In this document: positions 8,156-60,784 of the stretch, one piece after another
Layout: the number at the start of each line of letters is the position of its first letter
How positions within the stretch are numbered: position 1 is the stretch's first letter
NCBI GenBank assembly: GCA_002709955.1
Contig: PAQY01000007.1
Span: 1 to 64,000, forward strand
Direction of reading: 5' to 3'
DNA from: Rhodospirillaceae bacterium
Lineage (GTDB): Bacteria; Pseudomonadota; Alphaproteobacteria; UBA8366; Aestuariispiraceae
DNA: 64,000 bases
Made by a program: the position numbers and the translations under genes
Notes under the pieces: model-generated
Told to the model about the DNA's origin: nothing
What the model saw: only the letters and a program-made list of their open reading frames with translations
Database searches by the model: none

Positions 8156-8234
8156 AACCCAGATCAATTCCTTTGTTCTAAAACAACATCGTCCACAGGA
8201 TTGTGGTTTTTAGCAAGGATGATCTGAAAATCCT

Positions 8235-41652: not shown

Positions 41653-42384
41653 ATGAAAACTATTTGCGTTATTCCAGCTAGGGGCGGATCGAAGGGCTTA
41701 CCGCGTAAGAATGTGAAACTTCTTGCTGGGCATCCGCTGATCGCTTATCCGATCGTAGCAGCATTGCAATCAGGCGTTTGCGATACCGTGTTCTTGAGCA
41801 CGGACGATGAAGAGATAGCTGAAGCAGGGAGCCGTTATGGGGCGACGGTGCCATTCCTGCGGCCGGCGGAATTGGCAGGGGATTTGACGACAACAGAAGC
41901 CACTCTGAAAAATGCATTAGAATCATATGAGGCCTATTCAGGTAAGTCTTTCGACTGTTGTGTATTTATAACTGCAACTGACATATTTCGCCAACCAACG
42001 TGGATCACGGACGCGGTACGGCGATTGCAGAATGACCTTTCGTTGGAAAGCGTTTTTGCGGGCTATGGAACGCATAAGAACTACTGGCATAGGAATGATC
42101 TGGGTGCCTATGAGCGTATTTTACCTTGGATGAGTACCTATTCTTCCCGGCAAATTCGCCAGACGATTTGGCGAGAAGATACCGGTCTTGCCTCTGCCAG
42201 CCGTGCTTCGTTGTGGAGGGAAGGGCGCAGAATTGGTGACAAGGTTGAAATTATCAGCAATGGATTAACCGAAACTGCCATCGACATACATGATGAATTT
42301 GATCTTTTTCTGGCGGAGAAAGCGATAGAATGGTTGCGCGTTCATGCTCCTAACCGGGCCCCAGTTTCTCCTTCTCCCCAATAA
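41653..42384 (+). CDS. Cytidylyltransferase family protein (CMP-ulosonic acid synthetase-like)
   Basis: A 243-residue nucleotidyltransferase of the CMP-N-acetylneuraminate synthetase group. The intact nucleotide loop IPARGGSKGLPRKN lies at residues 7-20, followed by STDDEEIAEAGSRYGATVPFLRP, and a later DIHDEFDLFLAEKAI block at the C-terminus. These enzymes activate 3-deoxy-2-ulosonic acids (sialic, legionaminic, pseudaminic, KDO-type) with CTP. The NeuA-like PseF protein at 59100 and the fused domain at 43570 are further family members in this window. The sugar activated here is unknown. Confidence 0.85.
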   Translation: MKTICVIPARGGSKGLPRKNVKLLAGHPLIAYPIVAALQSGVCDTVFLSTDDEEIAEAGSRYGATVPFLRPAELAGDLTTTEATLKNALESYEAYSGKSFDCCVFITATDIFRQPTWITDAVRRLQNDLSLESVFAGYGTHKNYWHRNDLGAYERILPWMSTYSSRQIRQTIWREDTGLASASRASLWREGRRIGDKVEIISNGLTETAIDIHDEFDLFLAEKAIEWLRVHAPNRAPVSPSPQ

Positions 42385-42478
42385 AAATTTATCTGATTAG
42401 ATTTAATATTTTGGTCTTAAAAGAGATAAACTGAAAAATAGGATCGATTATTTATGCTGTTGGAAGAGGTGTGTTGCG

Positions 42479-43294
42479 ATGTATGAAGAAAAACTTGAAT
42501 GGATTTTGAAGTTTCTGAATTGTTTTTTCCGAATTTTAGGTCGGAGACGTGGTGATACTATTCGCGCCTATCTCGCAGAACACTTTGCTCCAATCTACCG
42601 ACACTCATTGAGTGGTGGTGATAAGATTTTGTTTTTCGGTCAAGGATTAAAGCCACTGTATCGGGGGAGATCGCTTCTTACCAAGGAGCCAGAGACTATT
42701 GCTTGGATTGATGGGATGTCATCCGAAGAAGTGATTTGGGATGTTGGTGCTAATATTGGCGTCTATTCTTTATATGCCGCAAAAGTTAAGAAAATGAAAG
42801 TTATCGCTTTTGAACCTTCTGCGTCAAATTACGCTGTTCTTTGTCGTAATATAGAACTTAACAAACTTGATAATGAAATTACTGGTTTTTGCATGGCGCT
42901 CAGTGATTCGAATAAATTTGATCGATTGTATTTTCCAACAACAAATATTGGTGCTTCTGGAAATCAACAAGGAATTACAAAAAATATGTTTAATGAGGAT
43001 TTTACTCCAATGTTTTCCCAAGGGAGCTTAGGTATGACAATAGACTCACTAATCGAGAATTGGGGATTCATACCTCCAAATCATATCAAGATTGATGTTG
43101 ACGGCATTGAAGGGTTGATAATTGATGGCGCTGATAAAACTTTAAAGAGCTTGAAGACGAAATCTTTGCTTGTTGAAGTAGTTGAGTCGTCAAAATTGAA
43201 GCTAGATAATGTTAAAGAAAAACTTGAGTCTTATGGTTTTGTTGGGAAGCTTCATGGAAAGAATAATCATATATTTACAAGGGAATTTAAATGA
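42479..43294 (+). CDS. FkbM family methyltransferase, strongly AT-rich
   Basis: A 271-residue SAM-dependent methyltransferase. EVIWDVGANIGVYSLYAAK near residue 84 is the SAM loop, VIAFEPSASNYAVLCRNIELN follows, and HIKIDVDGIEGLIIDGADKTL is the FkbM hallmark. It is far more AT-rich than its neighbours (19 G+C in 60 counted at 42841-42900) and is rich in Lys, Asn and Ile. Together with AT-rich flanks this suggests recent acquisition from a low-GC donor. It is a separate family member from the FkbM protein at 33048. Confidence 0.85.
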   Translation: MYEEKLEWILKFLNCFFRILGRRRGDTIRAYLAEHFAPIYRHSLSGGDKILFFGQGLKPLYRGRSLLTKEPETIAWIDGMSSEEVIWDVGANIGVYSLYAAKVKKMKVIAFEPSASNYAVLCRNIELNKLDNEITGFCMALSDSNKFDRLYFPTTNIGASGNQQGITKNMFNEDFTPMFSQGSLGMTIDSLIENWGFIPPNHIKIDVDGIEGLIIDGADKTLKSLKTKSLLVEVVESSKLKLDNVKEKLESYGFVGKLHGKNNHIFTREFK

Positions 43295-43569
43295 AGTTTG
43301 AAAATTATTTTTTCCCATGTTTTTGGATTCAGGAGGGTATTTTTGTATTTTGTTGCTATAGAAAAAGTTAATATTTAAAAACTTAAAGTATTTCTATATT
43401 ATTTTTTTGCTGTATCAATTGTTTTGTAGAAATTAACTAAAAAATATTGTTTGAGTTGATGGGCAGGCATATTAATAAATTTGCCATGCAAGTCTTGTGT
43501 TCGAAAAAATGCGATTTGAACTGTTGGAAGTTTTCAAACGCATATTGATCAATATTGAAATGGTGCTCT

Positions 43570-44982
43570 ATGACTGACTATCCCTTAGTTTCCATCATTG
43601 TTCGGACAAAAAACGAAGAGCGGTGGATTGGTGCGTGTCTACGTGCAATTTGCAAACAGTCCTACACGAATTTTGAAATCATCCTAGTGGATAATGGGTC
43701 GACAGATCAGACAATTGCGAAGGCCATGCCCTACGGTGTCAAATTGGTGACGATTGATGTCTTTTTGCCAGGCAAGGCAATTAATGATGGAATTCGTGCA
43801 AGCCAAGGAGAAATATTAGTTTGCTTGTCCGGGCATTGCATTCCTGTCGATTCCACATGGCTTGAGAATTTAGTGAAAGAGCTAAAGGACCCCGCAGTGG
43901 CTGGGGTTTACGGACGGCAACAACCAATGTCTTTCTCCAGCCCCTTTGATAAACGTGATTTGATGTTGGTTTTTGGGTTAGATCGAAAAGTTCAATACCG
44001 CGACAGCTTTTTTCATAACGCCAATTCCGCCTTCCGACGCGACGTCTGGAATGCGTATCCATTCGATGAAGAAGTGACAAATATTGAAGACCGTGTATGG
44101 GGAAAAAAAGTTATCTCGGAAGGATATCAGATTGTCTATTCGCCGGATGCGTCAGTTTATCATTATCATGGCATTCATCAAGATCTGAACCGAGACCGTG
44201 CCGCCAAGGTGGTACGGATTATGGAGGAGATCGAAGGTGATTCACATATAGGACGTCATGATTTAACAGAGTTTGACGTGACTGCAATTATTCCAGTTAG
44301 GGGTCCATTGAATGGGCCGGGAACGCAGCGACTGTTGGATCATACTCTGTCGCATGCTTTGGGATGTCGTAATATTACCCGTGTTGTGGTTTCAACGGAT
44401 GATCCGGAAATTGCTGCTTTTGCTGAAGCGCGTGGTGCGCAGGCACCGTTCTTGCGCCCACCGGAACTAAGTGAAGGGTATGTTGACATCACTGAAGTTC
44501 TCCAGTTTTCGCTGGATAAGGTGGAAGATCATTTTGGAGTTTGCGATGCTGTTGTAGTAATGCTGACCACGCATCCTTTTCGTCCGCCGGGCATGATCGA
44601 CGCCATGATAGAGCGAATGATTGAGGAAGGTCTGGATACGGTCGTTGCAGTGCGTCCCGAAATGCGACAGCTATGGCTCCAAAAGGATGGTGAGATTGAG
44701 CCTGTTGGAGACATTCGCTTCATGCCTCGCCATATAAAAGAAAGTCACGCAATTCTTGGCCTTTTCGGTTTGGGCTGCGTCACACATCCAGTATTTATAC
44801 GCGAGACTAGCCCATTTGGACCGCGCCTTGGCGTATACGAGATTGACGATCCATTCGCGTCTGTTGAGATTCGTGATAGCAACTATGCAGAAGTGGTTTT
44901 GCAATTGCTGGATGATTGGCAGGCGATAAGAGAACGAGATCAGGGGGCTAATCCTGGTGTTTCGGACCTAAGAAAGGATTAA
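43570..44982 (+). CDS. Fusion of GT2 glycosyltransferase and cytidylyltransferase-like domain
   Basis: A 470-residue two-domain protein. Residues 1-225 are a GT2 transferase (SIIVRTKNEERWIGACL, VDNGSTD, GRQQPMS, then HNANSAFRRDVW and NIEDRVWGKKVISEGY). Residues about 235-460 resemble CMP-ulosonate synthetases (VTAIIPVRG, VVVSTDDPEIAAFAEARGAQAPFLRP, VVVMLTTHPFRPPGMIDAMI). In the second domain the nucleotide loop reads IPVRGPLNGPGTQRLL, so the Lys and Arg of the usual RxGSKxxPxKN are lost. It may be catalytically dead, act on another nucleotide, or be regulatory. The ATG at 43570 was chosen. It is the first gene of the tightly packed operon and shares a nucleotide with the next start. Confidence 0.8.
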   Translation: MTDYPLVSIIVRTKNEERWIGACLRAICKQSYTNFEIILVDNGSTDQTIAKAMPYGVKLVTIDVFLPGKAINDGIRASQGEILVCLSGHCIPVDSTWLENLVKELKDPAVAGVYGRQQPMSFSSPFDKRDLMLVFGLDRKVQYRDSFFHNANSAFRRDVWNAYPFDEEVTNIEDRVWGKKVISEGYQIVYSPDASVYHYHGIHQDLNRDRAAKVVRIMEEIEGDSHIGRHDLTEFDVTAIIPVRGPLNGPGTQRLLDHTLSHALGCRNITRVVVSTDDPEIAAFAEARGAQAPFLRPPELSEGYVDITEVLQFSLDKVEDHFGVCDAVVVMLTTHPFRPPGMIDAMIERMIEEGLDTVVAVRPEMRQLWLQKDGEIEPVGDIRFMPRHIKESHAILGLFGLGCVTHPVFIRETSPFGPRLGVYEIDDPFASVEIRDSNYAEVVLQLLDDWQAIRERDQGANPGVSDLRKD

Positions 44983-46064
44983 TGCAGAAAATGCGTAAAA
45001 ACTCTCATAAAATCGCCTTTCTAGGATGTGGCCGTGTAGCCCAGCACTATATTAAAATTCTCAACGAGCTTGATCCTGTGGAGGGGCTCGAATGCGTTGC
45101 CGCATGTGATTTAGACATAGATAAAGCGAAGAACCTAACGAGACAGTTAGGTGGGCGCGCCTTTACGGAACTAAACGATATGCTGGAAACGGCACGTCCG
45201 GATTTGGTCTTCGTTTTAACTCGCAGCGGTGATCACACTCTTCATGCTCGTGCCGTCTTGGAAGCTGGCGTTAGTGTGATCAGCGAAAAGCCTATCGGCC
45301 TCGATCCGGAAGCTGTGATGCGTTTGAGCCAACTAGCGGAAACGCGTGGCCTGATGTATGGCGGTGTTTTCCAGAATCGTTGGAATCCTGCTGTGCGGAA
45401 ATTGAAAAAAACGATGGAAGATGGCCGCTTTGGTAGTATTGTGAGCGCCGCAATTCGCCTTCGTTGGTGTCGAATGCAGGAATACTATGAGGATGGATGG
45501 CATGGTACATGGGCTCAAGATGGTGGTGTTATCAATCAGCAGGCAATTCACCATTTAGATGCCTTGAATTGGATATGCGGGCCTATTGATGCGGTTTGTG
45601 CTGCGGGCGCTCAGCGTTCCAATATATTAGAGGCTGAGGATACTCTGGTTGCTGCTCTCCGTTTCTCAAATGGGTCTCTGGGCACGATTGAAGTAACAAC
45701 GGCAGCGCGCCCCGAGGATTTTGAAGCATCATTGTCTATTGTTGGTGATCGCGGTATCGCGCAGATCGGTGGTATCGCCCTGAACAAAATTGATGAATGG
45801 TTTTTCATCAATGCCGAGGACGGGGACGATAGGGTTACTGAGGACTATAATCAGGAGGTTCCGACGGGCTATGGTCTTGGTCATGGCCCAATGTTGCGGG
45901 ATCTGGTTTCTAGATTAGATTCAGCTGGTTTGGTTCCGCCCGTTCCAGCAGTTGAAGCAGTTTGTGCTGTTGAATTGGTCCATGCTCTCTATGCTTCAAT
46001 CGAACGCAATGCTTGGGTAAATTTGAGTGAAAAGCCGCGCTCGCAAAAATTAGGAAAACAATAA
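44982..46064 (+). CDS. Gfo/Idh/MocA family oxidoreductase
   Basis: A 360-residue NAD(P)-dependent dehydrogenase. The Rossmann motif is IAFLGCGRVAQHYIKIL, followed by VAACDLDIDKA. The catalytic-lysine stretch VISEKPIGLDPEAVMRL (EKP) lies near residue 97, and DGGVINQQAIHHLDALNWI contains the active-site His pair of the family. Members oxidise or reduce sugar hydroxyls, often on nucleotide- or carrier-bound sugars. It starts within the TAATG of the previous gene and is followed after 22 nt by the DAHP-synthase-like gene. A second family member lies at 59786. Confidence 0.88.
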   Translation: MQKMRKNSHKIAFLGCGRVAQHYIKILNELDPVEGLECVAACDLDIDKAKNLTRQLGGRAFTELNDMLETARPDLVFVLTRSGDHTLHARAVLEAGVSVISEKPIGLDPEAVMRLSQLAETRGLMYGGVFQNRWNPAVRKLKKTMEDGRFGSIVSAAIRLRWCRMQEYYEDGWHGTWAQDGGVINQQAIHHLDALNWICGPIDAVCAAGAQRSNILEAEDTLVAALRFSNGSLGTIEVTTAARPEDFEASLSIVGDRGIAQIGGIALNKIDEWFFINAEDGDDRVTEDYNQEVPTGYGLGHGPMLRDLVSRLDSAGLVPPVPAVEAVCAVELVHALYASIERNAWVNLSEKPRSQKLGKQ

Positions 46065-46086
46065 GTTTAAAGCTCTGGAGATTGAA

Positions 46087-46983
46087 ATGATTGAAAACAA
46101 AGCGCCTGGTAAAGACATTACTGAAGAAGATATGAAGTCAAAATTCCCTCTGGCTGCGAAAAAAGCTGGTAAAGAGGCCTCTACATTTATTGCGGCCGGG
46201 GTTGAATTCGGTGGAGCCCTTATTCCAGTATTTGCTGGTCCAAATATGGTTGAGTCCGAAGAACTTATTGTCGAGACTGCGAAGGCGGTAAAAGCAAGAG
46301 GCGCTCATTTTTTACGGGGGGGGGCTTTTAAACCCCTTTCATTTCCATATCGCTCTGCGAAATACACAGAAACCCGCGAACAGGGCATTGCATGGCTGAA
46401 AGTCGCAAAACAGGAAGCCGGTATTGGAATCATAACTGAGGTTATGGAAGAGCGCTTTCTCGATCTAATTTGTGATGCTGCAGATATTTTGCAGATTGGT
46501 TCCCGCAACATGCAGAATTATCCACTCATTTCAGCGGCGGCCAAAACAGGGAAACCGCTCATGATTAAGCGCCATTTCGGATGTTCCTTACGAGATTGGT
46601 TGGGAGCAGTCGAGTACGCAATGGTGGAAGGGAATGAGAAAGTTATTTTGTGTGAGCGCGGCGTTTCAGCACCGCATACCCATCGCAGTTCTTCAAGATT
46701 TTTGCTTGATCTGCAGGTCGTACCCGCAGCACAAGAAGTAACACATCTACCGATTGCCGTTGATCCTAGCCATGCCACGTTCTGGCGCTCTTGGGTTCGT
46801 CCTATGTCACTTGCTTCTGTCGCAGGCGGCGCCGATGCGATCATGTTGGAAGTCCATCCGGACCCAGAAAATTCGGCGGTTGATCCTCTTCAGCCTATCG
46901 ACTTTGCAAGTTTTGGTGATCTGATGAAGGATATGGAAAGGGTGGCTCGTTGTGTAGACCGAACCCTTGGGGTCCATATTTAA
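46087..46983 (+). CDS. DAHP-synthase-family aldolase with Cys to Asn change at the metal site
   Basis: A 298-residue homologue of class I-beta DAHP synthases, which condense PEP with an aldose phosphate. Conserved parts are RGGAFKP (Lys82), ITEVM, DILQIGSRNMQNY, LMIKRHFG (Lys161, Arg162), VDPSHAT (His229), LEVHPDP (Glu255) and Asp266. Two departures stand out. The metal-binding Cys of the AGPCSVES motif is Asn53 (AGPNMVES), the change that makes KDO8P synthases metal-independent. The KPRTSPYSFQG loop, which holds erythrose-4-phosphate, reads KPLSFPYRSAKY. The acceptor is therefore probably not E4P. It lies between an oxidoreductase and a shikimate-dehydrogenase-like gene in the operon; a role in making an ulosonic acid or carbocycle is inferred. 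Confidence 0.85.
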   Translation: MIENKAPGKDITEEDMKSKFPLAAKKAGKEASTFIAAGVEFGGALIPVFAGPNMVESEELIVETAKAVKARGAHFLRGGAFKPLSFPYRSAKYTETREQGIAWLKVAKQEAGIGIITEVMEERFLDLICDAADILQIGSRNMQNYPLISAAAKTGKPLMIKRHFGCSLRDWLGAVEYAMVEGNEKVILCERGVSAPHTHRSSSRFLLDLQVVPAAQEVTHLPIAVDPSHATFWRSWVRPMSLASVAGGADAIMLEVHPDPENSAVDPLQPIDFASFGDLMKDMERVARCVDRTLGVHI

Positions 46984-47008
46984 ACTTGGCTTGGGAGTTT
47001 TTTGCAAA

Positions 47009-47881
47009 ATGTCTTCTTTTGATTATATCGATAATCATGTGGAAAACATTGATGAAAGTTACTATGCGGCAATAATCGGTCTCAATCCATCCCGTGGTGC
47101 GCGTTCACCAACACTTTGGAATGCGGCATTTCAGGCGCAGGGACAATCCGCTAGAATGATTCCGATGGATGTATCTGCTGGCAATATACCTGCGTTAATT
47201 ACTGCGCTGAACGAAGATAAGCGGTTTTTGGGCGGTGCGGTGACGATGCCTTACAAGGAGAGCATTGCAGCGTTTCTTGGGGCAACCCGAATGGAACCGA
47301 CTGCACTACGTATCGGTGCAGTCAACTGTCTCTATCGTGGAAAACATGGTGATTTGTGCGGTGCTAATACGGACGGTGCAGCGGCATTAGTCAGTATTGA
47401 AGCGTTAATTGGCTCAATAGCAGGTAAACGTTGTCTGACTCTCGGAGTTGGTGGTGTCGGTAAAGCCGTAGCTGCGTATTTGGCTGATGCTAATGCCGAA
47501 TTGACATTGGCGAGCCGCAACCTTGAGCGGGACCAAGGTTTTGCAAGCAAAATTGGAGCACGCTTGATAGGCATGCCCGTCACACCTCCCGAATTTTCGG
47601 AATTGGATATTTTGATCAACTGTACAAGCCTAGGTTTTGCAAATGCAGATGTAACGGCGAGTCCGGTTCCGCTTGAATGTTTTTCGCGCATACCGAAAAG
47701 CTGTCGTGTATTTGATGTCATCTACAATCCGAGGCCGACCCAATTTCTGCGGTATGCGATCGAAACCGGGCACCCGGTAGAAGATGGTCTGTTCATGAAC
47801 CTTGAACAAGCTGTTCTTGGCTTTTGCCGCGCCAATCCCTTGGCTGTGCCAGATGTCGTTCGTCAGGCCATGTCAACTTGA
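47009..47881 (+). CDS. Shikimate-dehydrogenase-like oxidoreductase
   Basis: A 290-residue member of the shikimate/quinate dehydrogenase family. The catalytic Lys83 in AVTMPYKESI, Asn106 (GAVNCLYR), Asn120-Thr121-Asp122 (GANTDG) and the cofactor loop GVGGVGKAVA are conserved. The N-terminal substrate motif SxSP reads ARSP, so the first of the two serines that hold the shikimate carboxylate is Ala31. This may signal a different substrate. The ATG at 47009 is used; an in-frame upstream extension to 46967 would overlap the preceding gene. It lies 25 nt after the DAHP-synthase-like gene and is probably its pathway partner. Confidence 0.85.
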   Translation: MSSFDYIDNHVENIDESYYAAIIGLNPSRGARSPTLWNAAFQAQGQSARMIPMDVSAGNIPALITALNEDKRFLGGAVTMPYKESIAAFLGATRMEPTALRIGAVNCLYRGKHGDLCGANTDGAAALVSIEALIGSIAGKRCLTLGVGGVGKAVAAYLADANAELTLASRNLERDQGFASKIGARLIGMPVTPPEFSELDILINCTSLGFANADVTASPVPLECFSRIPKSCRVFDVIYNPRPTQFLRYAIETGHPVEDGLFMNLEQAVLGFCRANPLAVPDVVRQAMST

Positions 47882-47971
47882 ACAGTAGTGTGGTTTGATT
47901 TTGGGGCATGATGACTTTTTAGTGATGTCGTGAGTGCCAACCTCTTAGCTATTGTAAAGGCGTTCCTCTAA

Positions 47972-49825
47972 ATGTGTGGTGTTGCAGGTCTTGTTGGGCG
48001 TTCCGTGTCTCTCGATAAAGCTAAGTTAGCGTTGCAGACTATGCGGCATCGGGGACCCGATAGCTCTGACCATTGGATCGCGCCAACTGTTTGCTTTTTA
48101 CATACACGCCTTTCTATACAAGACTTAAGTAATAAAGCGTCTCAACCGATGCGCGACCGTGATACGGGCGTTGTCCTCACTTATAATGGTGAAGTTTATA
48201 ATCCGGATGATTTGCGTCGGCGATATTTAAAGGACTGTAAGTTTGAGAGTCATTCAGATACTGAAGTCATTTTGAAACTGTATTGTCGCTATGGATTAGC
48301 ATTTTTACCATGGTTGTCAGGAATGTTCTCGTTCGCAATTTGGGACCCTCGAGACGAATCTCTACATCTTGTGCGAGATAGATTTGGTATCAAACCACTT
48401 CATTATGTTGCTCAAGATGGGATAATTTATTTTGGGTCTGAATTGAAGCCGATGGTGGCTTTGGGCGCAAAGCTTTCGTTGAATCTTGCTGCCGTATCAG
48501 ATTATTTGATCGATGGGTTGCTGGCTCATGGACCGGATACATTCTTTAGTCCGGCAATGACGGTTGAACCTGGTACGGTTATGAGTTGGTACCCAACGAC
48601 GTCAAAGAGTTCACGATACTGGAAACCACCTATTGCTGACGATGAAATCGAACTGTCGGTGGATGTAGAACAAGAGATATGGGAGTTACTGTTAGCCTCT
48701 ATAGACCACCATTTGCTCTCAGATGTACCAGTAGGCGTCAGCCTATCCGCCGGGCTGGATAGTCAGTTACTAATGCATGGAATCGCTCAAAGTGGTTTGT
48801 CCGACTTGCATGCTTACACCTATGGCTTCGAAAATCCAAACTATGATGAAATCGCCCCCGTGAACCAGGTCGATTTTAATATTTCATATACGCATCATAC
48901 TGTTCGTCTCCGTGCGGATGAAGTTCTATCTGATCTGACACAGGCGGTTGCTGTTTTTGAAATGCCGTTGGGAGGAGTTGGAACCCTTTCGGCATGGCGC
49001 ATGATGCGGCTGGCTCGGGAGACAGGCACTACGGTGCTCTTGGCCGGTGAAGGGGCTGATGAGATATTTGCTGGATATCGATACTATTTTGATGCTCATT
49101 TTGCAGACCTCGCGGAAAAAGGGGATCTCGAAAACAGTACACGAGAGCAGGAAGCCTATGAAAGATCACATGATGCAAATTTGCGAACCTTAGGTGTTAA
49201 CGCTAGGAAGATAGAAGGTGCAAAAGGAGTCCGTGCACCGGATGGCTCATCTCTTTCTGGAGGCTTGGTGCTGGGCGTGCCGCTTCGTGATGTCAAGGTC
49301 CGAACGCCAGAGTTTGAGCTATGGCGCCAGGCAAAGGGACATCTCCGTCGCGCAATGTTAAGGGATGCCTACGCCATAAAGCTCCCGAAGCTCTTACAAT
49401 TTCAGGATCGCGCTAGTATGGCGTGGGGTGTTGAGACCCGAGTGCCTTTTCTAGATCATGCTTTGGTCGAGGCGGTTGGTAGATTGCCAGGTGACTGGCT
49501 CATTTGCGACGGCGTGTCTAAAAGCCTGCCAAAGAGGATGATGCAACGATTTGCTGGGGGTCCAGTCGCCACGGAGACCAAGCGTTATGTTTCTTCCCCA
49601 CAAAGAGAATGGCTCAAGGCCGATATATTCGAAGATTGTAAGGCGTTCGTACGGGATGGCGCGGTCGCGGGATATGGACTTATTGATATGGATAGGTTCC
49701 TGGCCGACTATGATACCTATGCGAATGCGCCTGATCTTGGAAACTCTTTCTTTGTCTGGAAAATCCTCAATCTTGAGGCAGTTCTGAGGCGTTTCTGTCC
49801 GACGCGTCTTGAGTTCACCCTGTGA
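47972..49825 (+). CDS. Asparagine synthetase (glutamine-hydrolysing) family protein
   Basis: A 617-residue AsnB-type amidotransferase. The catalytic Cys2 starts the glutaminase domain (MCGVAGLVG), with RHRGPDS and YNGEVYN. The synthetase domain has the ATP pyrophosphatase loop LSAGLDSQLL near residue 260 and the GEGADEIFAGYRYYF motif. In glycan clusters such proteins commonly amidate uronic or ulosonic acids or attach amino acids rather than making free asparagine. The stop overlaps the next start by 4 nt (GTGA). Confidence 0.9.
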   Translation: MCGVAGLVGRSVSLDKAKLALQTMRHRGPDSSDHWIAPTVCFLHTRLSIQDLSNKASQPMRDRDTGVVLTYNGEVYNPDDLRRRYLKDCKFESHSDTEVILKLYCRYGLAFLPWLSGMFSFAIWDPRDESLHLVRDRFGIKPLHYVAQDGIIYFGSELKPMVALGAKLSLNLAAVSDYLIDGLLAHGPDTFFSPAMTVEPGTVMSWYPTTSKSSRYWKPPIADDEIELSVDVEQEIWELLLASIDHHLLSDVPVGVSLSAGLDSQLLMHGIAQSGLSDLHAYTYGFENPNYDEIAPVNQVDFNISYTHHTVRLRADEVLSDLTQAVAVFEMPLGGVGTLSAWRMMRLARETGTTVLLAGEGADEIFAGYRYYFDAHFADLAEKGDLENSTREQEAYERSHDANLRTLGVNARKIEGAKGVRAPDGSSLSGGLVLGVPLRDVKVRTPEFELWRQAKGHLRRAMLRDAYAIKLPKLLQFQDRASMAWGVETRVPFLDHALVEAVGRLPGDWLICDGVSKSLPKRMMQRFAGGPVATETKRYVSSPQREWLKADIFEDCKAFVRDGAVAGYGLIDMDRFLADYDTYANAPDLGNSFFVWKILNLEAVLRRFCPTRLEFTL

Positions 49826-54322: not shown

Positions 54323-54354
54323 GAACGAATCACAAATTCGTGAAAGGCAGCTTT

Positions 54355-55995
54355 ATGTACGTAATTGGAATTAGTTCTGGATTGAAAGCGGGGCATCATG
54401 ATGGGGCGGCCGTTTTGATGCAGGATGGTGTTATTATTGCGGCAAGCGAAGAAGAACGGTTCACTTTAGGCAAACATGCTCGCGGGGACTTGCCAAAAGG
54501 GGCGATCAAATATTGTCTGCGTGAAGCTGGAATATCAATTCAAGACGTTTCTTTTATATGCTCTCCTTTGAAGACATATCCCAATTACGCCCAGCGCGTG
54601 GCTGAGTGGGTCGCCTTTAATTTCGGCCATTCGCCCAAAGTAGAACTGTATGACCACCACATGTGTCATGCGGCAAGTACATATTATAGTTCAGGTTTTG
54701 ATGAAGCGACGGTTGTTTGCTTGGATAATTCTGGAGACAACTCGTCTGGCGTAATTTTGCATGCCAAAGGAACGCAACAGACGGTGCTCAAACGGTTTGC
54801 TAGAGAAAATTCTTTGGGTCTCTACTATGGCATGATGACCCAGTATTTGGGGTATCAGATGACTAATGACGAATATAAGGTCATGGGTCTGGCATCCTAT
54901 GGAGAGCCCACGTATCTGGAGGAGTTTTCGAAGATTCTGCGACCCGACGGACTGGATTTTCATTTTAATCAAAGCTTCGACAAACGGATCGTGGACAAGG
55001 CGCTTTATACGACTGACTTTTCAACTCGTCAGGAGCGAATTTTCACAACCGGGTTAGAGGACGTTTTGGGCCCACGCCGGTTGCCCAATGCGCCATTAGA
55101 AGAACGACATCGGAACATTGCCGCTAGCTTACAGAAGCAACTTGAGGTTGTCGAAATCGAAATTGTTGAATCAGCTATTGCGCAGACCGGTTGTCCGGAT
55201 GTTTGTATTGCCGGTGGTGTTGGTTTGAACTGCAAGGCTAATATGGAAATCTTGTTGAATCCAGCCGTTCGACGTCTCTATGTTCCGCCAGTGCCACATG
55301 ATGCGGGCGTTGCGCTTGGGGCGGCAATGCTAAAACTCGTTGAAGAGGGGTTCCCAATCGAAAAAATGGACCACGCGTATTGGGGGCCGTCCTACACCGC
55401 TGACGAAATCAAATTCCGGTTGAACCAAATTGGGGCTGATTATCAAGATTTGAATGATCCAACTGAAGCCTGCGTCAAAGATCTTGGTAAAGGATATAAG
55501 GTTGGGTGGTTCCAAGGGCGCATGGAATACGGTCCACGTGCCTTAGGGAATCGTTCCATTATAGCCGATCCATCTGATGAAGGTGCGAAAGAGCGGATTA
55601 ATTCGAGTATAAAATATCGAGAAGAGTTTCGTCCCTTCTGTCCTTCCATATTGTATGAGCACCAGGATGATTATTTCGACGCTGGGTTTGACGCACCCTT
55701 TATGGTTGTTACATTGCCGGCGAAGTCGACGGCCAGAAAGGCGGCCCCTGCAGTTGTCCATGTTGATGATACGGCCCGCATACAATCAGTTCGTGCAGAT
55801 ACGAATGCGCCCTTCCATGCCTTGATCAGTGCTTTCCACAAGGCAGGTGGTCCACCGATGTTATTGAATACGAGCTTGAATATTAACGAACAGCCAACGG
55901 TCAATGCGCCGTTGGAAGCTTTGCATACATTCTTCTGTAGTGGATTAGACGTGTTGTATCTGGAGAATTTTCGCCTCGCCAAACCTGGAAAATAA
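54355..55995 (+). CDS. Carbamoyltransferase, NodU/CmcH family
   Basis: A 546-residue carbamoyltransferase that makes carbamoyl-adenylate and passes the carbamoyl group to a hydroxyl. The N-terminal domain has IGISSGLKAGHHDGAAVL, ASEEERFTLGKHARG, YDHHMCHAASTYYSSGF with the metal/carbamoyl-binding histidines, and CLDNSGD. The C-terminal part has GRMEYGPRALGNRSI and the LNTSLNINEQPTV signature. In rhizobia NodU decorates Nod factors; related enzymes carbamoylate sugars and antibiotics. The ATG at 54355 fits the conserved start; an upstream in-frame extension to 54265 overlaps the GT4 gene. Confidence 0.92.
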   Translation: MYVIGISSGLKAGHHDGAAVLMQDGVIIAASEEERFTLGKHARGDLPKGAIKYCLREAGISIQDVSFICSPLKTYPNYAQRVAEWVAFNFGHSPKVELYDHHMCHAASTYYSSGFDEATVVCLDNSGDNSSGVILHAKGTQQTVLKRFARENSLGLYYGMMTQYLGYQMTNDEYKVMGLASYGEPTYLEEFSKILRPDGLDFHFNQSFDKRIVDKALYTTDFSTRQERIFTTGLEDVLGPRRLPNAPLEERHRNIAASLQKQLEVVEIEIVESAIAQTGCPDVCIAGGVGLNCKANMEILLNPAVRRLYVPPVPHDAGVALGAAMLKLVEEGFPIEKMDHAYWGPSYTADEIKFRLNQIGADYQDLNDPTEACVKDLGKGYKVGWFQGRMEYGPRALGNRSIIADPSDEGAKERINSSIKYREEFRPFCPSILYEHQDDYFDAGFDAPFMVVTLPAKSTARKAAPAVVHVDDTARIQSVRADTNAPFHALISAFHKAGGPPMLLNTSLNINEQPTVNAPLEALHTFFCSGLDVLYLENFRLAKPGK

Positions 55996-56030
55996 ATGCG
56001 CGGATATTCTCTAAAAATGGAAACAGCGTG

Positions 56031-57884
56031 ATGGCGACTCAAAAAGCCATTCGGGATTATCTCGCAGATTTGGCAACGCTTGGAGTACGTCCCTCGCAAT
56101 ATTTTAAATTATGCGTGGCTCGTCTTGCCGTGATTTTCTTTGAAGCGATTACAATCGGCTTATTTTTGCCGATTTTGCAATTCGTTCAAGCGCGTGGTGA
56201 TCGGGCAGAATTGGTTCAAAATGCAGCGTATTGGAAATCGGTGATTGAAACTCTGGAGCAACTCTCTCTGCCTTTGGGGCTGCCGACTTTGTTTTTTATT
56301 ACCCTGGTTTTTTTGGGCGCGCGCCAAGTCTCTAAGTATGCCGAGTCTATAATTCGTAGCCGTCTGCGCGAGGAACTTGTAAGAAATGTTCGCTCGGCAG
56401 GGTTCGAGGCATTTGTCAGGGCGAAATTGGATGTGCAAAGAACCCTGACGCAAGGCGAGATAATGAATGCTCTGGGCCAGGAAACGGATCGTGCGACTGT
56501 GTCTGCCTACGAACCTGTAACCTTAGCAACATCGATATTCATGATCACGTTTTATGGAGGTGCTCTGCTGATTGCAGAACCAATCCTAACGCTTTGGGTG
56601 GTTGGGATTTTAGGTCTGACAGCATTTTTTTTTAGAGTATTCTTCCGTTTGGCCAAGACATCCAGCATTGAGATTACAGCAGCAAATGAAGCTGCATCTG
56701 TGTTTTTAGCAGAGCGCCTACGATCTATGCGGTTGATCCGTTTGACGCGAACCGAGTCCTTGGAATGTAAGGAAATGGATTCGCGCAATGAGTGGCGGTT
56801 TCGTGTAAATTTTGGTTTTGCCAAAAGTCAGGGTGTATTGTCTGCACTTTCGGAACCTATCGCGGTCGTGGCATGTTTCGCCGTGATTTATCTGGGCGTG
56901 AATGTCTTTGGGTTGGCACTAGAAGGACTGGCGATGTTCGTAATCGTCCTGGCGCGCCTAACGCCGATGTTCAAGGAAGTTGTGAGTCTCAGCCAGACGC
57001 TTGTGGCTTTTCGAACTAGTTTACATAAGGTCGCCTCAACGCTTCGGACTCTGCTAGAGTCTCGGGAACCAGATGATGGCGTACCTGCTCCAATGATGGT
57101 GAAGGAAGGCATCGCATTCAGATCTATTTCGGTAACTTATCCAGGGTCTGATCAGCCTGCATTGAAGGATATCTCTACTCAGATAGCGGTTGGGACGATA
57201 ACTGCTCTTGTTGGTCCTTCTGGTGCTGGAAAATCTACCTTGATTGATCTGTTGCCACGCCTGCGCCAGCCAAGCTCTGGGAAGGTGGAGATCGACGGTC
57301 AGGACGTTGCGTTAATGGAGCTTTCAGGTTACCGGCACCTTATCGGTTATGTCCCGCAGCATCCGCAATTGTTTGATACAACGGTCGCCGAGCATATAGC
57401 ACTTGGTGTTCAGAATCCGTCATTTCATAATATTCAGGCGGCAGCGCTTGCCGCCGGAGCAGATTCATTTATTGCTCAATTCCCGAAGGGATACCAAACT
57501 CGGCTCGGAGAAAATGGCTCATTGATTTCGGGCGGTCAAAGACAAAGACTGGATCTCGCTCGAGTTTTGATGAGCGGTGCTGACATTCTGATCTTTGATG
57601 AGCCGACCAGTAATCTTGATGCAGAGTCCGAAGCACAGTTTATGGCAACCATCCGGCATTTAGCTAGGGAGAATAGAAAGACAATTTTTGTGGTTACCCA
57701 TAGGCTTTCGAGCCTGGTTCATGTCGATAATATTCTTTTGATGGAAAATGGACGCATCGTGATGGAGGGTACTCATGACGACTTAATGTCCCGGAAAGGC
57801 TGGTATCGAGATGCTTGCGGACAGCAGGGGTTGTTGAGAAAACCAGGGCAGGTGACGATAGAATCGAACAAGCATCATGGCTGA
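56031..57884 (+). CDS. ABC exporter/flippase, MsbA or PglK type
   Basis: A 617-residue fused ABC half-transporter. Residues 1-330 hold about six membrane helices. The ATPase domain has Walker A GPSGAGKST near residue 398, signature ISGGQRQRLDLARVL, Walker B ILIFDEPTSNLD and the H-loop (VVTHRLSS). Homologues flip lipid-linked oligosaccharides (PglK) or lipid A (MsbA); a lipid-linked glycan is the likely cargo here. The ATG at 56031 is used, with a GTG one codon upstream. It overlaps the aminotransferase gene by 8 nt. Confidence 0.92.
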   Translation: MATQKAIRDYLADLATLGVRPSQYFKLCVARLAVIFFEAITIGLFLPILQFVQARGDRAELVQNAAYWKSVIETLEQLSLPLGLPTLFFITLVFLGARQVSKYAESIIRSRLREELVRNVRSAGFEAFVRAKLDVQRTLTQGEIMNALGQETDRATVSAYEPVTLATSIFMITFYGGALLIAEPILTLWVVGILGLTAFFFRVFFRLAKTSSIEITAANEAASVFLAERLRSMRLIRLTRTESLECKEMDSRNEWRFRVNFGFAKSQGVLSALSEPIAVVACFAVIYLGVNVFGLALEGLAMFVIVLARLTPMFKEVVSLSQTLVAFRTSLHKVASTLRTLLESREPDDGVPAPMMVKEGIAFRSISVTYPGSDQPALKDISTQIAVGTITALVGPSGAGKSTLIDLLPRLRQPSSGKVEIDGQDVALMELSGYRHLIGYVPQHPQLFDTTVAEHIALGVQNPSFHNIQAAALAAGADSFIAQFPKGYQTRLGENGSLISGGQRQRLDLARVLMSGADILIFDEPTSNLDAESEAQFMATIRHLARENRKTIFVVTHRLSSLVHVDNILLMENGRIVMEGTHDDLMSRKGWYRDACGQQGLLRKPGQVTIESNKHHG

Positions 57885-59100
57885 TTTTTCATTTTTACCA
57901 TATGGCAAGCAGATCATTGAAGAAGATGATATTGCTGCGGTGACGTCGGCTCTGCAGAGTGACTTTCTTACGACTGGTCCGTTGGTCGCACAATTTGAGG
58001 AGGCGTTTTGCGCGGTTGTTTCCGCAGGGTTTTCGATCTCTTGTTCCAGTGCGACGGCTGGTTTGCACCTCGCCTGTGCAGCTGTTGGGTTGAAAGAAAA
58101 TGACTTGGCGATTGTGCCGGCGAATACCTTCGTCGCAACCGCCAATGCTGTGCGGTACTGCGGCGCAGATGTGGTGTTCGCTGATGTGAATCCTGAGACG
58201 GGGATGATGGGAATCAAACATTTGCGCGATACCTTGGCGCGATTGGGGCCGGATCGGAAGCGGGTTAGAGTTATTTTACCGGTCTACTTTGCCGGTGAAG
58301 TTGCCGAAGTCGAAGAGATATATGAAGAAGCCAAACGCTTAGGCGCAATGGTCATTGAAGATGCTGCCCATGCGTTAGGATCGCGTTATCAATCTAAAGA
58401 TGGTCAATGGCATATTGTTGGTGCGTGCGATCACAGCGATCTGGCCGTGTTTTCCTTTCACCCAGTTAAAACAATTACTATGGGAGAAGGTGGCGTAGTC
58501 TCTACTCAGAATTCTGATCTGGCAAAGAGGGTGGCGTTATTGAGATCGCATGGAATTGAGCGAAATAAGGATGTTTTCACAAACAAAGTGTTGGCTTTTG
58601 CCGAAAATGGCAGTGTTAACCCGTGGTATTATGAGATGACTAATTTGGGGTGGAACTATCGGGTAACGGACATTCAATGCGCCCTAGGGATGACTCAATT
58701 GCAGAAATTGGATCGGTTTGGTAAGGCACGGCAAAGCTTAGTGGGTCGCTATCGAAGTCAATTATCGGACCGCTCACCCTATTTGACCTGTTTGAAATCT
58801 TCGCCGCATTGCAAACCGGTCAACCACCTGTTCGTTATCCTTATTGATTTTGAGGCATTAGGGATTTCCCGAGGGGATCTAATTCAGTCTCTTAAAGACG
58901 ATAAAATCGGAACTCAGGTTCATTACGTCCCAGTTCTCTACCAGCCCTATTATCAAGCGCTGTACCCGAACCATCCAGATTTACCCGGGGTGCGACGTTA
59001 CTACGACCAATGCCTTTCTCTGCCGCTTTATCCAACTCTGGAAATGTCTGATGTGGATCGTGTCGTTCAATCGCTAAAAAACAAGCTTGAAATACAATAA
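57877..59100 (+). CDS. DegT/DnrJ/EryC1 family aminotransferase, PseC-like
   Basis: A 407-residue PLP enzyme. PYGKQIIEEDDIAAVTSAL and SDFLTTGP at the N-terminus, ILPVYFAGEVAEVEEI, EDAAHALGS and the PLP lysine Lys198 in FHPVKTITMGEGG match the nucleotide-sugar C4 aminotransferases, closest in pattern to PseC of the pseudaminic acid pathway. It would transfer an amino group from glutamate to a UDP-4-keto-6-deoxy sugar. PseB, which makes that substrate, is not in this window. It overlaps the ABC transporter gene by 8 nt and touches the next gene (TAATG). Confidence 0.9.
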   Translation: MADFSFLPYGKQIIEEDDIAAVTSALQSDFLTTGPLVAQFEEAFCAVVSAGFSISCSSATAGLHLACAAVGLKENDLAIVPANTFVATANAVRYCGADVVFADVNPETGMMGIKHLRDTLARLGPDRKRVRVILPVYFAGEVAEVEEIYEEAKRLGAMVIEDAAHALGSRYQSKDGQWHIVGACDHSDLAVFSFHPVKTITMGEGGVVSTQNSDLAKRVALLRSHGIERNKDVFTNKVLAFAENGSVNPWYYEMTNLGWNYRVTDIQCALGMTQLQKLDRFGKARQSLVGRYRSQLSDRSPYLTCLKSSPHCKPVNHLFVILIDFEALGISRGDLIQSLKDDKIGTQVHYVPVLYQPYYQALYPNHPDLPGVRRYYDQCLSLPLYPTLEMSDVDRVVQSLKNKLEIQ

Positions 59101-59789
59101 TGAGCACCATCGCTATCATTCCGGCTCGGGCTGGGTCAAAACGCATTCCGAAAAAGAATCTGGCATTGGTGAATGGCATTCCGATGGTGACTTGGTCGAT
59201 TCGTGCTGCAGTCGAAAGCAAGATGTTCGACCGTATCATCGTTTCCTCCGACAGTTCAGAAATTTATGAAATCGCCAAAGTGGAAAAGGTTGAGTTTGAT
59301 CAGAGACCGCCTTATTTGGCTGGGGATGATGCTCGGGTGCGCGACGTCTGTATGGATATACTAAGTCGCATTGAAGCGCAGGGCGAAATGCCAATGATTA
59401 TGTCTGTTCTCTATGCAACCGCCCCGCTTAGGACCGCCGAAGATATTAAAGCGACAGTGTCTTTGATCACACCTGGTATCTGTGATTTTGCGGTTGCGGT
59501 AACTGAATTCAGCCATCCGGTACATCAGGCCTTAATCCGTAAGCCTGATGGAAGCGGCGTCCCAGCTTTTCCTGAGTTGGTTCGGCTTCGTCACGATGAG
59601 ATTGCGAGCTATGTGGTGGACAATGGCAGTACATATTCGGTTTGTGTTGCAGAGTGGCTGCGTCAAAAGACATGGTTCGGGTCCTCCTTACGCATGCATC
59701 TGATGCCTAGACGGCGCTCCATAGATGTCGATACGCCCGAAGATTTAGATTATTTGAGATTCGTCGCCGGTCAGGATTTGGTGTCGTGA
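59100..59789 (+). CDS. CMP-ulosonate (pseudaminic/legionaminic type) cytidylyltransferase
   Basis: A 229-residue CMP-nonulosonate synthetase. The intact nucleotide loop IPARAGSKRIPKKN (residues 7-20), VSSDSSEIYEIA near residue 48 and RRRSIDVDTPEDLDYL at the C-terminus match the PseF/NeuA family. It activates a nonulosonic acid with CTP. It directly follows a PseC-like aminotransferase, so pseudaminic acid is the first candidate, but the synthase and other steps are missing here. Overlaps the next gene by 4 nt (GTGA). Confidence 0.9.
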   Translation: MSTIAIIPARAGSKRIPKKNLALVNGIPMVTWSIRAAVESKMFDRIIVSSDSSEIYEIAKVEKVEFDQRPPYLAGDDARVRDVCMDILSRIEAQGEMPMIMSVLYATAPLRTAEDIKATVSLITPGICDFAVAVTEFSHPVHQALIRKPDGSGVPAFPELVRLRHDEIASYVVDNGSTYSVCVAEWLRQKTWFGSSLRMHLMPRRRSIDVDTPEDLDYLRFVAGQDLVS

Positions 59790-60781
59790 AAGTCCTCGTA
59801 ATTGGATGTGGTTCGATTGGCTCTCGGCATTCACGGCTACTAAAATCTCTATGCGATGTTGCTGTCTGGGATACTGATAATGGACGGGCGCAGGCACTTG
59901 CGGATACTTTGAACGTAAACTGTTTTTCAAACTTCGATGCGGCCAAAAACTGGCAGCCAGATGGTGTTGTCATCGCCGTCCCCAATGAGTTTCATGTTTC
60001 TGTCGCACTGCCATGGTTGGGACATGTAAGAAGCATTCTGGTAGAGAAGCCTTTAGCCGCGACCGTCACCGACGCTGAACGTCTGATGACGTCGATTAAA
60101 GGCAGTGGGACCAAGGTTTACGGTGCATGCAACATGCGCTTTCATCCTGGAGTTAGGATGCTGAAGCAAGGATTGGAATCGATTGGGACTCCGTTGTTCG
60201 CCCGTTTGCATTACGGAAACTCGTTACCGAATATGCGACCGAACAGTGATTATCGGAAGTTGTATTGTGCCTCTCGCGTCGCGGGTGGTGGTGTTATCTT
60301 AGACGCGATCCATGAACTCGATTACATTAAGTGGTTGCTAGGCCCTGCCACAATGCTCACAGCAGCTGCGGGACGCCTTTCTGATTTGGATATTGATGTC
60401 GAAGATTGGGCGTGTCTAACGCTTTGTCATGAGTCTGGGCCCCGCACGGAAATCCAACTGGACTATTTGCGTCCGTATAAGCGGCGTGGTGGAGAGATTG
60501 TCGGGTCTATGGGCGCTGTGAGTTGGAATAGCGAAGGCAAATCACCAGAAATCATAAAATCTGATCTAGTGATGGTGTCTGACACATCCCCCCGTAGCCT
60601 TTTAGATCAATTGGGCGTAAATGGGGATGATGCTTTTGTCTCGATGTACCAATGTTTTTTGTCGGCAATGCAATCAGGTGGGTCCTCAGATTTAGCAAGT
60701 ATAGAGGAAGCCTTTGATACACTGCGGCTGGCCTGGGATTGTCTTGGCGCGGTGCTACCGCTTGATGCTGGAAGGAAATGA
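59786..60781 (+). CDS. Gfo/Idh/MocA family oxidoreductase
   Basis: A 331-residue NAD(P)-dependent dehydrogenase, GTG start in a GTGA overlap. Rossmann motif VLVIGCGSIGSRHSRLL, catalytic ILVEKPLAATVTDAERL (EKP near residue 92) and the GGGVILDAIHELDYIKWL His region near residue 172 are conserved. Genes of this type regularly sit beside CMP-nonulosonate synthetases and class III aminotransferases in flagellin or surface glycan islands, where they are thought to modify the ulosonic acid. It is only distantly similar to the relative at 44982. Confidence 0.88.
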   Translation: MKVLVIGCGSIGSRHSRLLKSLCDVAVWDTDNGRAQALADTLNVNCFSNFDAAKNWQPDGVVIAVPNEFHVSVALPWLGHVRSILVEKPLAATVTDAERLMTSIKGSGTKVYGACNMRFHPGVRMLKQGLESIGTPLFARLHYGNSLPNMRPNSDYRKLYCASRVAGGGVILDAIHELDYIKWLLGPATMLTAAAGRLSDLDIDVEDWACLTLCHESGPRTEIQLDYLRPYKRRGGEIVGSMGAVSWNSEGKSPEIIKSDLVMVSDTSPRSLLDQLGVNGDDAFVSMYQCFLSAMQSGGSSDLASIEEAFDTLRLAWDCLGAVLPLDAGRK

Positions 60782-60784
60782 CCC

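Follow-up and report, generated by a model that had tools for sequence, protein, structure and literature searches.

Can a bacterium make a cytidine monophosphate (CMP)-activated ulosonic acid with a synthase that is neither NeuB nor KdsA, the two synthase types from which, to our knowledge, CMP-activated ulosonates are known? This question is raised by a 64,000-nucleotide stretch of Rhodospirillaceae bacterium DNA (assembly GCA_002709955.1, contig PAQY01000007.1), here called the window, which is C6:1-64000 of a 325,648-base contig (C6) in a genome of 4.23 Mb. At 41653-47881 it carries genes for an intact CMP-ulosonate-type transferase (CMPT1), a fusion of a family 2 glycosyltransferase (GT2) with a CMP-transferase-fold domain, a Gfo/Idh/MocA oxidoreductase, a synthase of the DAHPS/KDO8PS superfamily (DAHPS-like), and a shikimate-dehydrogenase-like (SDH-like) oxidoreductase, which are genes A, C, D, E, and F of Table 1. 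We read them as a five-gene cassette, moving horizontally, whose product would be a CMP-activated 3-deoxy-2-ulosonic acid formed via the DAHPS-like enzyme, with neither NeuB nor KdsA, and we put the probability of this reading at slightly above one half (about 0.55).

Conservation and co-occurrence of the cassette genes

A pattern scan with the DAHPS-like protein, which recovers close relatives only, gave 38 loci with DAHPS-like relatives at 63 to 82% identity. About one-third of these loci are from near-identical marine Alphaproteobacteria, and the loci are therefore not independent events. With five further loci from sampled genomes, 43 loci outside the window were available, 32 of which had enough flank; the other 11, with short flanks, were set aside. 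The carriers were Roseibium, Marinomonas, Denitromonas, SAR324, SAR11, SAR86, Prochlorococcus, a Rhizobium metagenome-assembled genome (MAG), and other Alphaproteobacteria, many of them titled as seawater single cells. In nearly all flank-sufficient loci, the same set recurred beside the DAHPS-like gene, namely, a CMP-transferase, the GT2/CMP-transferase fusion, a Gfo/Idh oxidoreductase, and the SDH-like gene. Taken one by one in the 32 loci, the SDH-like gene was found in 31, Gfo/Idh in 30, a CMP-transferase of some kind in 29, and the GT2 part in 28, and 27 loci had all four; Gfo/Idh homologues were found in 39 of all 43 loci. The next commonest family, which matched a PMT-type glycosyltransferase family, reached only 14 of the 38 loci. 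Gene order or strand differed in some loci (e.g., L028, L032, L037, L055, and L056), with most of the set retained. No recognized phosphatase was found among the 20 gene families recurring in at least 4 of the 38 loci, and the recurring families likewise included no recognized dehydroquinate synthase or dehydratase. A radical SAM/SPASM family (median length, 305 amino acids) occurred in 7 of the 38 loci, usually right after the DAHPS-like gene; in L032 its member lies between the DAHPS-like and SDH-like genes (7254-8192).

The association also held independently of position. Among 385 sampled genomes of Alphaproteobacteria, 5 had the DAHPS-like protein at E ≤ 1e-95, and the same 5, the window's own among them, had the SDH-like protein at E ≤ 1e-50; the two draws of 385 are taken as identical because the same genome handles appear in both. 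In one of the five (G152), the SDH-like gene was on a different contig from the DAHPS-like gene. A sample of 398 genomes of the phylum had 3 with the DAHPS-like protein, including one new carrier (G422). When 40 genomes were searched for CMPT1, it was present in all 5 genomes with the DAHPS-like protein besides that of the window (E values of 4e-105 to 5e-72), whereas the best E value in the 35 genomes without the DAHPS-like protein was only 2e-25, with none at a comparable score. CMPT1 and the DAHPS-like gene are about 63 kb apart in G422, and their link is thus more than shared position. Pairwise distances of the two proteins correlated with a Spearman coefficient of 0.86 (27 rows, uncorrected for shared ancestry), compared with 0.50 to 0.72 for other cassette parts. 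The five genes belong together more than by chance, as judged by their conservation across distant taxa and their co-occurrence, and the cassette is almost certainly a functional unit.

The DAHPS-like protein family formed one clade (SH-aLRT support of 100) in a quick tree search whose root is unsure because of long outgroup branches. Cyanobacteria, SAR11, and Beta- and Gammaproteobacteria were interleaved within this clade, which argues for horizontal transfer of the gene. Carriage by plasmids or phages found no support: in the plasmid and phage collections, every DAHPS match was below 60% identity, the fusion protein was not covered to 80% by any plasmid record, and a scan of viral contigs found no relative, which does not prove absence.

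The DAHPS-like synthase

Gene E matched PF00793 at 156 bits (cutoff, 25.5) and kept the AroF-type phosphoenolpyruvate (PEP) and active-site residues, which places it by sequence in the DAHPS/KDO8PS superfamily. It scored below both curated cutoffs for type Iβ DAHPS (NF006421, 299.3 versus 335; TIGR01361, 261.2 versus 267.75) and reached 85.5 bits against the KDO8PS model TIGR01362 (cutoff, 314). Gene E shares with NeuB, PseI, and LegI a proposed role, PEP condensation ahead of CMP activation, but the NeuB profile PF03102 aligned over just 98 of its residues (profile positions 49 to 146 of 241; 24.1 bits versus a cutoff of 22.1), with no full-length match, whereas the NeuBs of the window's genome scored 203 to 289 bits. 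An AroE-type gene, a type II DAHPS, and a KdsA-like protein are present elsewhere in the same genome; the cassette copies of genes E and F are thus extra.

We aligned 44 gene E sequences, including that of the window, with four AroF/AroA proteins, Escherichia coli KdsA, and the KdsA-like protein of the window's genome. R77, R140, K161, R191, H229, E255, and D266, which we take to function in PEP and metal binding, were retained in all 44 rows. The position of the Cys in the GPC motif, presumably a metal ligand, was Asn (N53) in 44/44 rows and Cys in the four AroF/AroA references; it was also Asn in E. coli KdsA and Cys in the KdsA-like protein. The Arg of the KPR(T/S) motif, which we assume binds the aldose phosphate, was present in all six references and was Leu (L84) in 44/44. 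Also invariant across the 44 rows were F86, a 3-residue insert with R89, H197, H199, and the FW pair at 232 and 233, and the loop at the gene E Asp read VDPL, versus (S/C)D(G/S) in the references. Thus, gene E resembles type Iβ DAHPS, which supplies its nearest solved structures, in the PEP-site residues and the His, Glu, and Asp, and it was 37 to 44% identical to at least 15 plasmid-borne DAHPSs among the matches listed; it differs in the Cys-to-Asn replacement, in the change of the KPRTSPY-type motif to KP-L-S/T-FPYR, in the insert, in the HTH and FW changes, in scoring below both curated cutoffs, and in forming a separate clade. With the metal-free KDO8P synthase of E. coli it shares the Asn at the metal Cys position, but its score to the KDO8PS model is low, and it is without the aldose-phosphate-position Arg that KdsA keeps.

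An excerpt of PMC3052366 describes Asn in place of Cys as required for metal independence in KDO8P synthases, and as its hallmark, and states that appreciable metal-free activity needs further changes in the CysAspGlyPro motif. Both types of change are present in gene E, and we infer that the enzyme is metal independent. On its residues, it would be a synthase with a different acceptor that feeds a CMP-activated ulosonate. If that acceptor were unphosphorylated, the missing recognized phosphatase in the cassette would be explained.

The substitutions also bear on a simpler product, plain 3-deoxy-d-arabino-heptulosonate (DAH): gene E would still use erythrose 4-phosphate, a host phosphatase would dephosphorylate the product, and CMPT1 would make CMP-DAH. 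That the nearest solved relatives are DAHP synthases, with the AroF-type PEP residues and the active-site His, Glu, and Asp retained, is in keeping with this route. However, the Arg found in all six DAHPS/KDO8PS references is replaced by Leu throughout the family, and the loop has the 3-residue insert with its invariant Arg, so that we consider CMP-DAH an improbable product.

The two oxidoreductases

Gene D matched the structure 3q2k at 215 bits over residues 10 to 341 of 360, almost its whole length, with 3q2i also near; we take these two structures to be the WlbA proteins of Bordetella pertussis and Chromobacterium violaceum. A WlbA paper on the same two species is cited in PMC10622841, whose text states that WbpB oxidizes C3 of UDP-N-acetylglucosaminuronic acid (UDP-GlcNAcA). 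Gene D differs from WlbA/WbpB (UDP-GlcNAcA 3-dehydrogenase) in its neighborhood: the recurring families of the cassette loci included no 3-aminotransferase or acetyltransferase.

For gene F, the best NCBIfam model was aroE, at 127.5 bits and below the cutoff of 200.2. In an alignment of 28 of the 38 SDH-like rows, K97, N134 to D136, and A45-R46-S47-P48 were invariant, and the catalytic Lys and Asp are thus retained. The predicted structure (mean predicted local distance difference test score [pLDDT], 94.6) had 7col, a 5-ketofructose reductase, as its best Foldseek match (E = 3.3e-23), narrowly ahead of AroE, while by sequence an AroE came first and 5-ketofructose reductase second. We therefore do not rank 5-ketofructose reductase as the nearest kin of gene F; it shows that a protein of this fold can act on a keto sugar and is no basis for a function call. 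Gene F shares the fold, the catalytic Lys, and the NTD motif with the shikimate dehydrogenase family and with 5-ketofructose reductase (7cok/7col). It differs from the AroE of the window's genome in having Ala for the first Ser of the SxS motif, with an invariant Arg next to it, and in having lost the Asn of NVTxP; both motifs presumably serve the shikimate pocket. Another putative shikimate dehydrogenase, kin to the 5-ketofructose-type reductase, was inactive on 5-ketofructose, according to an excerpt of PMC7954740.

The DAHPS-like and SDH-like proteins could be true shikimate-pathway enzymes, encoded by unregulated copies, that raise the supply of DAHP, dehydroshikimate, or quinate for a decoration that is shikimate derived or aminoshikimate-like, and their closest families are indeed type Iβ DAHPS (299 bits) and AroE (127.5 bits). 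Nevertheless, both score below the curated cutoffs, the aldose-phosphate Arg and the metal Cys of gene E are replaced in 44/44 rows, and neither dehydroquinate enzyme was recognized in the gene families that recur across the 38 loci. A shikimate role would also leave the tie to the CMP-transferase unexplained, and we hold it to be unlikely.

The CMP-transferases and the GT2 fusion

The window has the three CMP-transferase domains claimed in the preliminary description of this DNA; PF02348 detected them in CMPT1, in the C-terminal half of the fusion, and in a second intact gene (CMPT2). The CTP-binding loop of CMPT1 is conserved in an alignment of 27 rows, and with the PF02348 match this marks it by sequence as a candidate CMP-ulosonate synthetase. 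Its nearest solved structure was 9ftb (85.5 bits), titled CMP-Pse5Ac7Ac synthetase, and its best structure matches were sialate-, pseudaminate-, and Kdo-type CMP synthetases. In a quick tree search with long outgroup branches and an unsure root, the 27 cassette CMPT1s formed one clade (SH-aLRT support of 97), and CMPT2 fell outside it.

Two roseobacter plasmid stretches, 3998-8594 of L077 (Thalassovita gelatinovora pAge77) and 3995-8714 of L078 (Sulfitobacter sp. D7 p4SUD7), carry a row of genes for GT2, a CMP-transferase, a SerA-like dehydrogenase, GalE, and an MptE-like protein. No NeuB is annotated in them, and they are possibly another NeuB-free CMP pathway. Such related GT2 genes beside a CMP-transferase and a SerA-like dehydrogenase would fit a CMPT1 that activates a non-ulosonate, such as a phosphonate or hydroxy acid, with the DAHPS-like enzyme making a PEP-derived acid for it; given that the best solved-structure matches of CMPT1 are all ulosonate-type synthetases of the three kinds named above, we regard this as very unlikely.

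In the fusion protein, the predicted structure (mean pLDDT, 88.5; predicted template modeling score, 0.58) had a GT-A/GT2 fold at residues 4 to 234 and a CMP-NeuAc-synthetase fold at residues 235 to 462. The latter aligned with 6ifd at a Z score of 23.9 over 218 residues (root mean square deviation, 3.3). Its CTP-binding loop positions were variable in 35 rows, the window included, and the loop is therefore not intact, which bears out the earlier statement that one of the three domains is degenerate. One comparison of fusion proteins used 29 of the 35 rows. The GT2 part has S-x-H at the position where DXD is usual; we rejected this motif as a signature of a CMP donor, as it also occurs in a GT2 of Gloeothece, and no CMP-transferase is annotated in the 4 kb around that gene. 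In L056 (7130-8490), the GT2 and the CMP-transferase-like domain are two adjacent, unfused genes. The fused domain was found at E ≤ 1e-20 in 3 of the 385 class-sample genomes, two DAHPS-like carriers and G261, and G410 has a divergent two-gene version of the fusion. On these counts, a one-to-one rule for the fusion gene was rejected; it is common in the cassette and not obligatory.

Proposed pathway

In the pathway that we propose, gene E would condense PEP, metal free, with an aldehyde that is not erythrose 4-phosphate, probably an aldose that is unphosphorylated or charged in some other way. CMPT1 would join the ulosonate so formed to CMP. Either ahead of this activation or following it, a ring hydroxyl may be oxidized by the WlbA-like dehydrogenase and reduced again by the SDH-like reductase, which would give the final stereochemistry. 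The GT2 part of the fusion would transfer the sugar, and the inactive CMP-transferase-fold domain is a candidate docking module. We infer the chemical steps, their order, the acceptor, and the product alike. The preliminary description had suggested that the DAHPS-like and SDH-like pair could supply the C-C bond step; that the pair forms a conserved, co-occurring unit with the CMP-transferase and Gfo/Idh genes held up, and the step itself is supported and not proven, with NeuB present in 25 of 30 cassette genomes. Like pseudaminic and legionaminic acid gene sets, the cassette combines a CMP-transferase with sugar oxidoreductases in a surface-glycan island, but its five recurring genes include no NeuB, PseB, PseC, or PseG, and a set of that kind lies separately in the same island.

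A broader claim, which we hold only tentatively, is that gene E represents a further class of PEP-dependent ulosonate synthase beside DAHPS, KDO8PS, and NeuB. Such an enzyme would be metal independent, would use an unphosphorylated or atypically charged aldose, and would act with the WlbA-like/SDH-like redox pair and CMPT1 to make an undescribed CMP-activated sugar acid for the surfaces of abundant ocean bacteria (SAR11, Prochlorococcus, SAR86, and SAR324). Literature searches on the cassette, on marine-bacterial ulosonates, and on the single enzyme families turned up no description of the cassette, judged by titles and abstract openings. If the claim is true, bacterial glycans would gain a building block through a third type of CMP-ulosonate synthase, one recruited from among the DAHPSs. 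This would also explain part of the variable surface islands of the marine bacteria that dominate the sea, islands at which recognition by phages and grazers takes place. The combination of GPN with KP-L-S/T-FPYR, found in 44/44 rows, could serve as a search key for such synthases in surface islands. In these islands, genes of this kind are likely now labeled "3-deoxy-7-phosphoheptulonate synthase" and "shikimate dehydrogenase," and reannotation would correct metabolic models.

The cassette and NeuB products

The preliminary description had taken the lack of NeuB, PseB, and PseG as an argument for a new pathway. Literally, none of the three is in the window, but the statement is misleading: the contig has a PseB gene beginning 2.1 kb to the right of the window edge, three NeuB genes beginning at 10 to 21 kb, and a PseG-like gene as well. 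Because the island continues past C6:64000, the premise was a window-edge effect, and we discarded the argument. The flanking genes make it conceivable that the cassette CMP-transferases serve ordinary NeuB products and that the DAHPS-like and SDH-like proteins are accessory and not sugar making.

We searched for NeuB and PF02348 in 30 genomes from the 38 pattern-scan loci, with 8 loci left out. NeuB was found at >100 bits in 25 of the 30, so that the cassette may yet have a link to NeuB products, and four other cassette genomes with completeness of 94 to 100% all had NeuB. A true NeuB was not found in the remaining five genomes (G004, G011, G013, G020, and G021). In G013, the sole NeuB-profile match was the DAHPS-like gene itself, and the locus CMP-transferases of G013 and of G020 and G021, both Prochlorococcus, were outside the CMPT1 clade. 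G004 is a Denitromonas isolate (locus L026) with a 5.2-Mb draft genome and only two PF02348 matches at E ≤ 1e-3, namely, one of 215 bits, which we take for KdsB, and the cassette CMPT1. The absence of NeuB from these draft genomes is suggestive, most strongly so for the Denitromonas isolate.

A role in NeuB products has in its favor the three NeuB genes, PseB, PseC, and the PseG-like gene in the same island, besides the 25 genomes with NeuB. It accords poorly, however, with the cassette stretches themselves, which contained NeuB in only 6 of 43 loci (3 of the 32 with enough flank), and with the five genomes in which NeuB was not found. Moreover, the island has further CMP-transferases, CMPT2 and the one beyond the window, and CMPT1 tracks the DAHPS-like gene, in 5/5 genomes versus 0/35 controls. 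On balance, this role seems unlikely, and we favor synthesis by the DAHPS-like enzyme.

Several observations besides the frequency of NeuB in cassette genomes weigh against synthesis by the cassette itself. Four of the five genomes without NeuB are titled as single cells or MAGs, and all 30 came without completeness figures. Several Prochlorococcus and SAR11 loci carry another CMP-transferase clade instead of CMPT1, and in L011, L054, and L057, all with enough flank, the stretch lacked its own CMP-transferase, although for L054 and L057 one was located elsewhere in the genome. Of the five class-sample genomes with the DAHPS-like protein, three (G137, G152, and G410) gave no match to the fused domain, which was found weakly (34% identity) in G261, a genome without the DAHPS-like protein. 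Finally, we know of no substrate, product, or activity for any member of the cassette families.

Organization of the window and the flanking island

The features are collected in Table 1. The two Gfo/Idh genes, the DAHPS-like and SDH-like genes, and PseC named in the preliminary description were all found by profile, and the class III aminotransferase was present, although just past the quoted end of 60781. That all of these genes form one pathway was not borne out: 57877-62095 goes with a nonulosonate gene set, reading as the left end of one that continues past the window edge, and the cassette is a separate unit. Placed between PseC and PseB, CMPT2 probably goes with this set, and from position we would assign the second Gfo/Idh gene and the class III aminotransferase to it as well. 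Of the genes expected in a pseudaminic acid set, PseB and PseC of the island exceeded their cutoffs, whereas the PseG-like, NeuB, and CMP-transferase genes were below the equivalog cutoffs; a GNAT gene reached only 19.4 bits versus the PseH cutoff of 93.1. In a profile search of the contig, nonulosonate-type genes ran to C6:87403. They included two WbuX amidotransferases, both over the cutoff, and HisH- and HisF-like genes were seen by eye. A fourth NeuB is on contig C1, close to genes that by eye look like flagellin genes.

Table 1. Positions of cassette genes and nonulosonate-type genes in the window (numbers without prefix) and beyond it on contig C6
Feature	Position	Strand	Match
CMPT1, cassette gene A, intact CMP-ulosonate-type cytidylyltransferase	41653-42384	+	PF02348, 77 bits
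FkbM-type methyltransferase, followed by AT-rich spacer; outside conserved cassette	42479-43294	+	PF05050
Gene C, GT2 + CMP-transferase-fold fusion	43555-44982 (alternative ATG, 43570)	+	PF00535; PF02348 (39.5 bits, C-terminal half)
Gene D, Gfo/Idh/MocA oxidoreductase, WlbA type	44982-46064	+	Structures 3q2k, 3q2i
Gene E, DAHPS/KDO8PS-superfamily synthase, altered metal and acceptor sites	46087-46983	+	PF00793, 156 bits
Gene F, SDH-like oxidoreductase, remodeled substrate site	46967-47881	+	PF08501, 53.6 bits
PseC-type aminotransferase, nonulosonate set, not cassette	57877-59100	+	TIGR03588, 451.6 bits (over cutoff, 423.5)
CMPT2, second intact CMP-transferase	59100-59789	+	PF02348, 86 bits; PseF model, 147.6 bits (cutoff, 205.7)
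Second Gfo/Idh oxidoreductase, neighbor of CMPT2	59786-60781	+	PF01408
Class III aminotransferase, glutamate-1-semialdehyde-aminomutase-like	60785-62095	+	PF00202, 169 bits; NF004856, 351 bits (cutoff, 486)
PseB	C6:66077-67105		490 bits (cutoff, 407.75)
NeuB	C6:74236-75297		NeuB domain profile
NeuB	C6:77416-78498		NeuB domain profile
PseG-like	C6:80970-81968		99.5 bits (below cutoff, 153.55)
Further CMP-transferase beyond window	C6:84462-85157
NeuB domain inside 749-amino-acid protein	C6:85154-87403

Within the window, the FkbM gene and the AT-rich spacer (42385-43570) split CMPT1 from the fusion gene and are perhaps a later insertion; in other loci, such as L015 with CMPT1 at 6850-7584 and the fusion gene at 7581-8930, the two genes overlap, with no FkbM gene between them. 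A scan for promoters and terminators gave counts no higher than in shuffled sequences.

Destination of the product and neighboring genes

The cassette product may be destined for protein glycosylation or for a polysaccharide. YjbF-type exopolysaccharide genes were found in 11 of the 38 loci and YjbH-type genes in 7. In L055 (5936-15622), a flagellin gene stands some kilobases away from the cassette genes, which have a TPR protein on their opposite side, and this neighborhood hints at flagellin glycosylation. In L054 (118-3333), the DAHPS-like gene adjoins a TPR/GT41 (OGT-like) glycosyltransferase near the contig end, and the SDH-like gene and CMPT1 are on contig C328.

Beyond the window edge, the stretch 6618-15367 of L006 (C6:68617-77366) has the two WbuX genes, one HisH/HisF-like pair (by eye), and two NeuB genes, a possible acetamidino-type nonulosonate modification in duplicate. 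After the cassette, at 47972-55995 of the window, an asparagine-synthase-like gene, a second one recognized by eye, and a NodU-type carbamoyltransferase gene suggest amide and carbamoyl decoration of a glycan.

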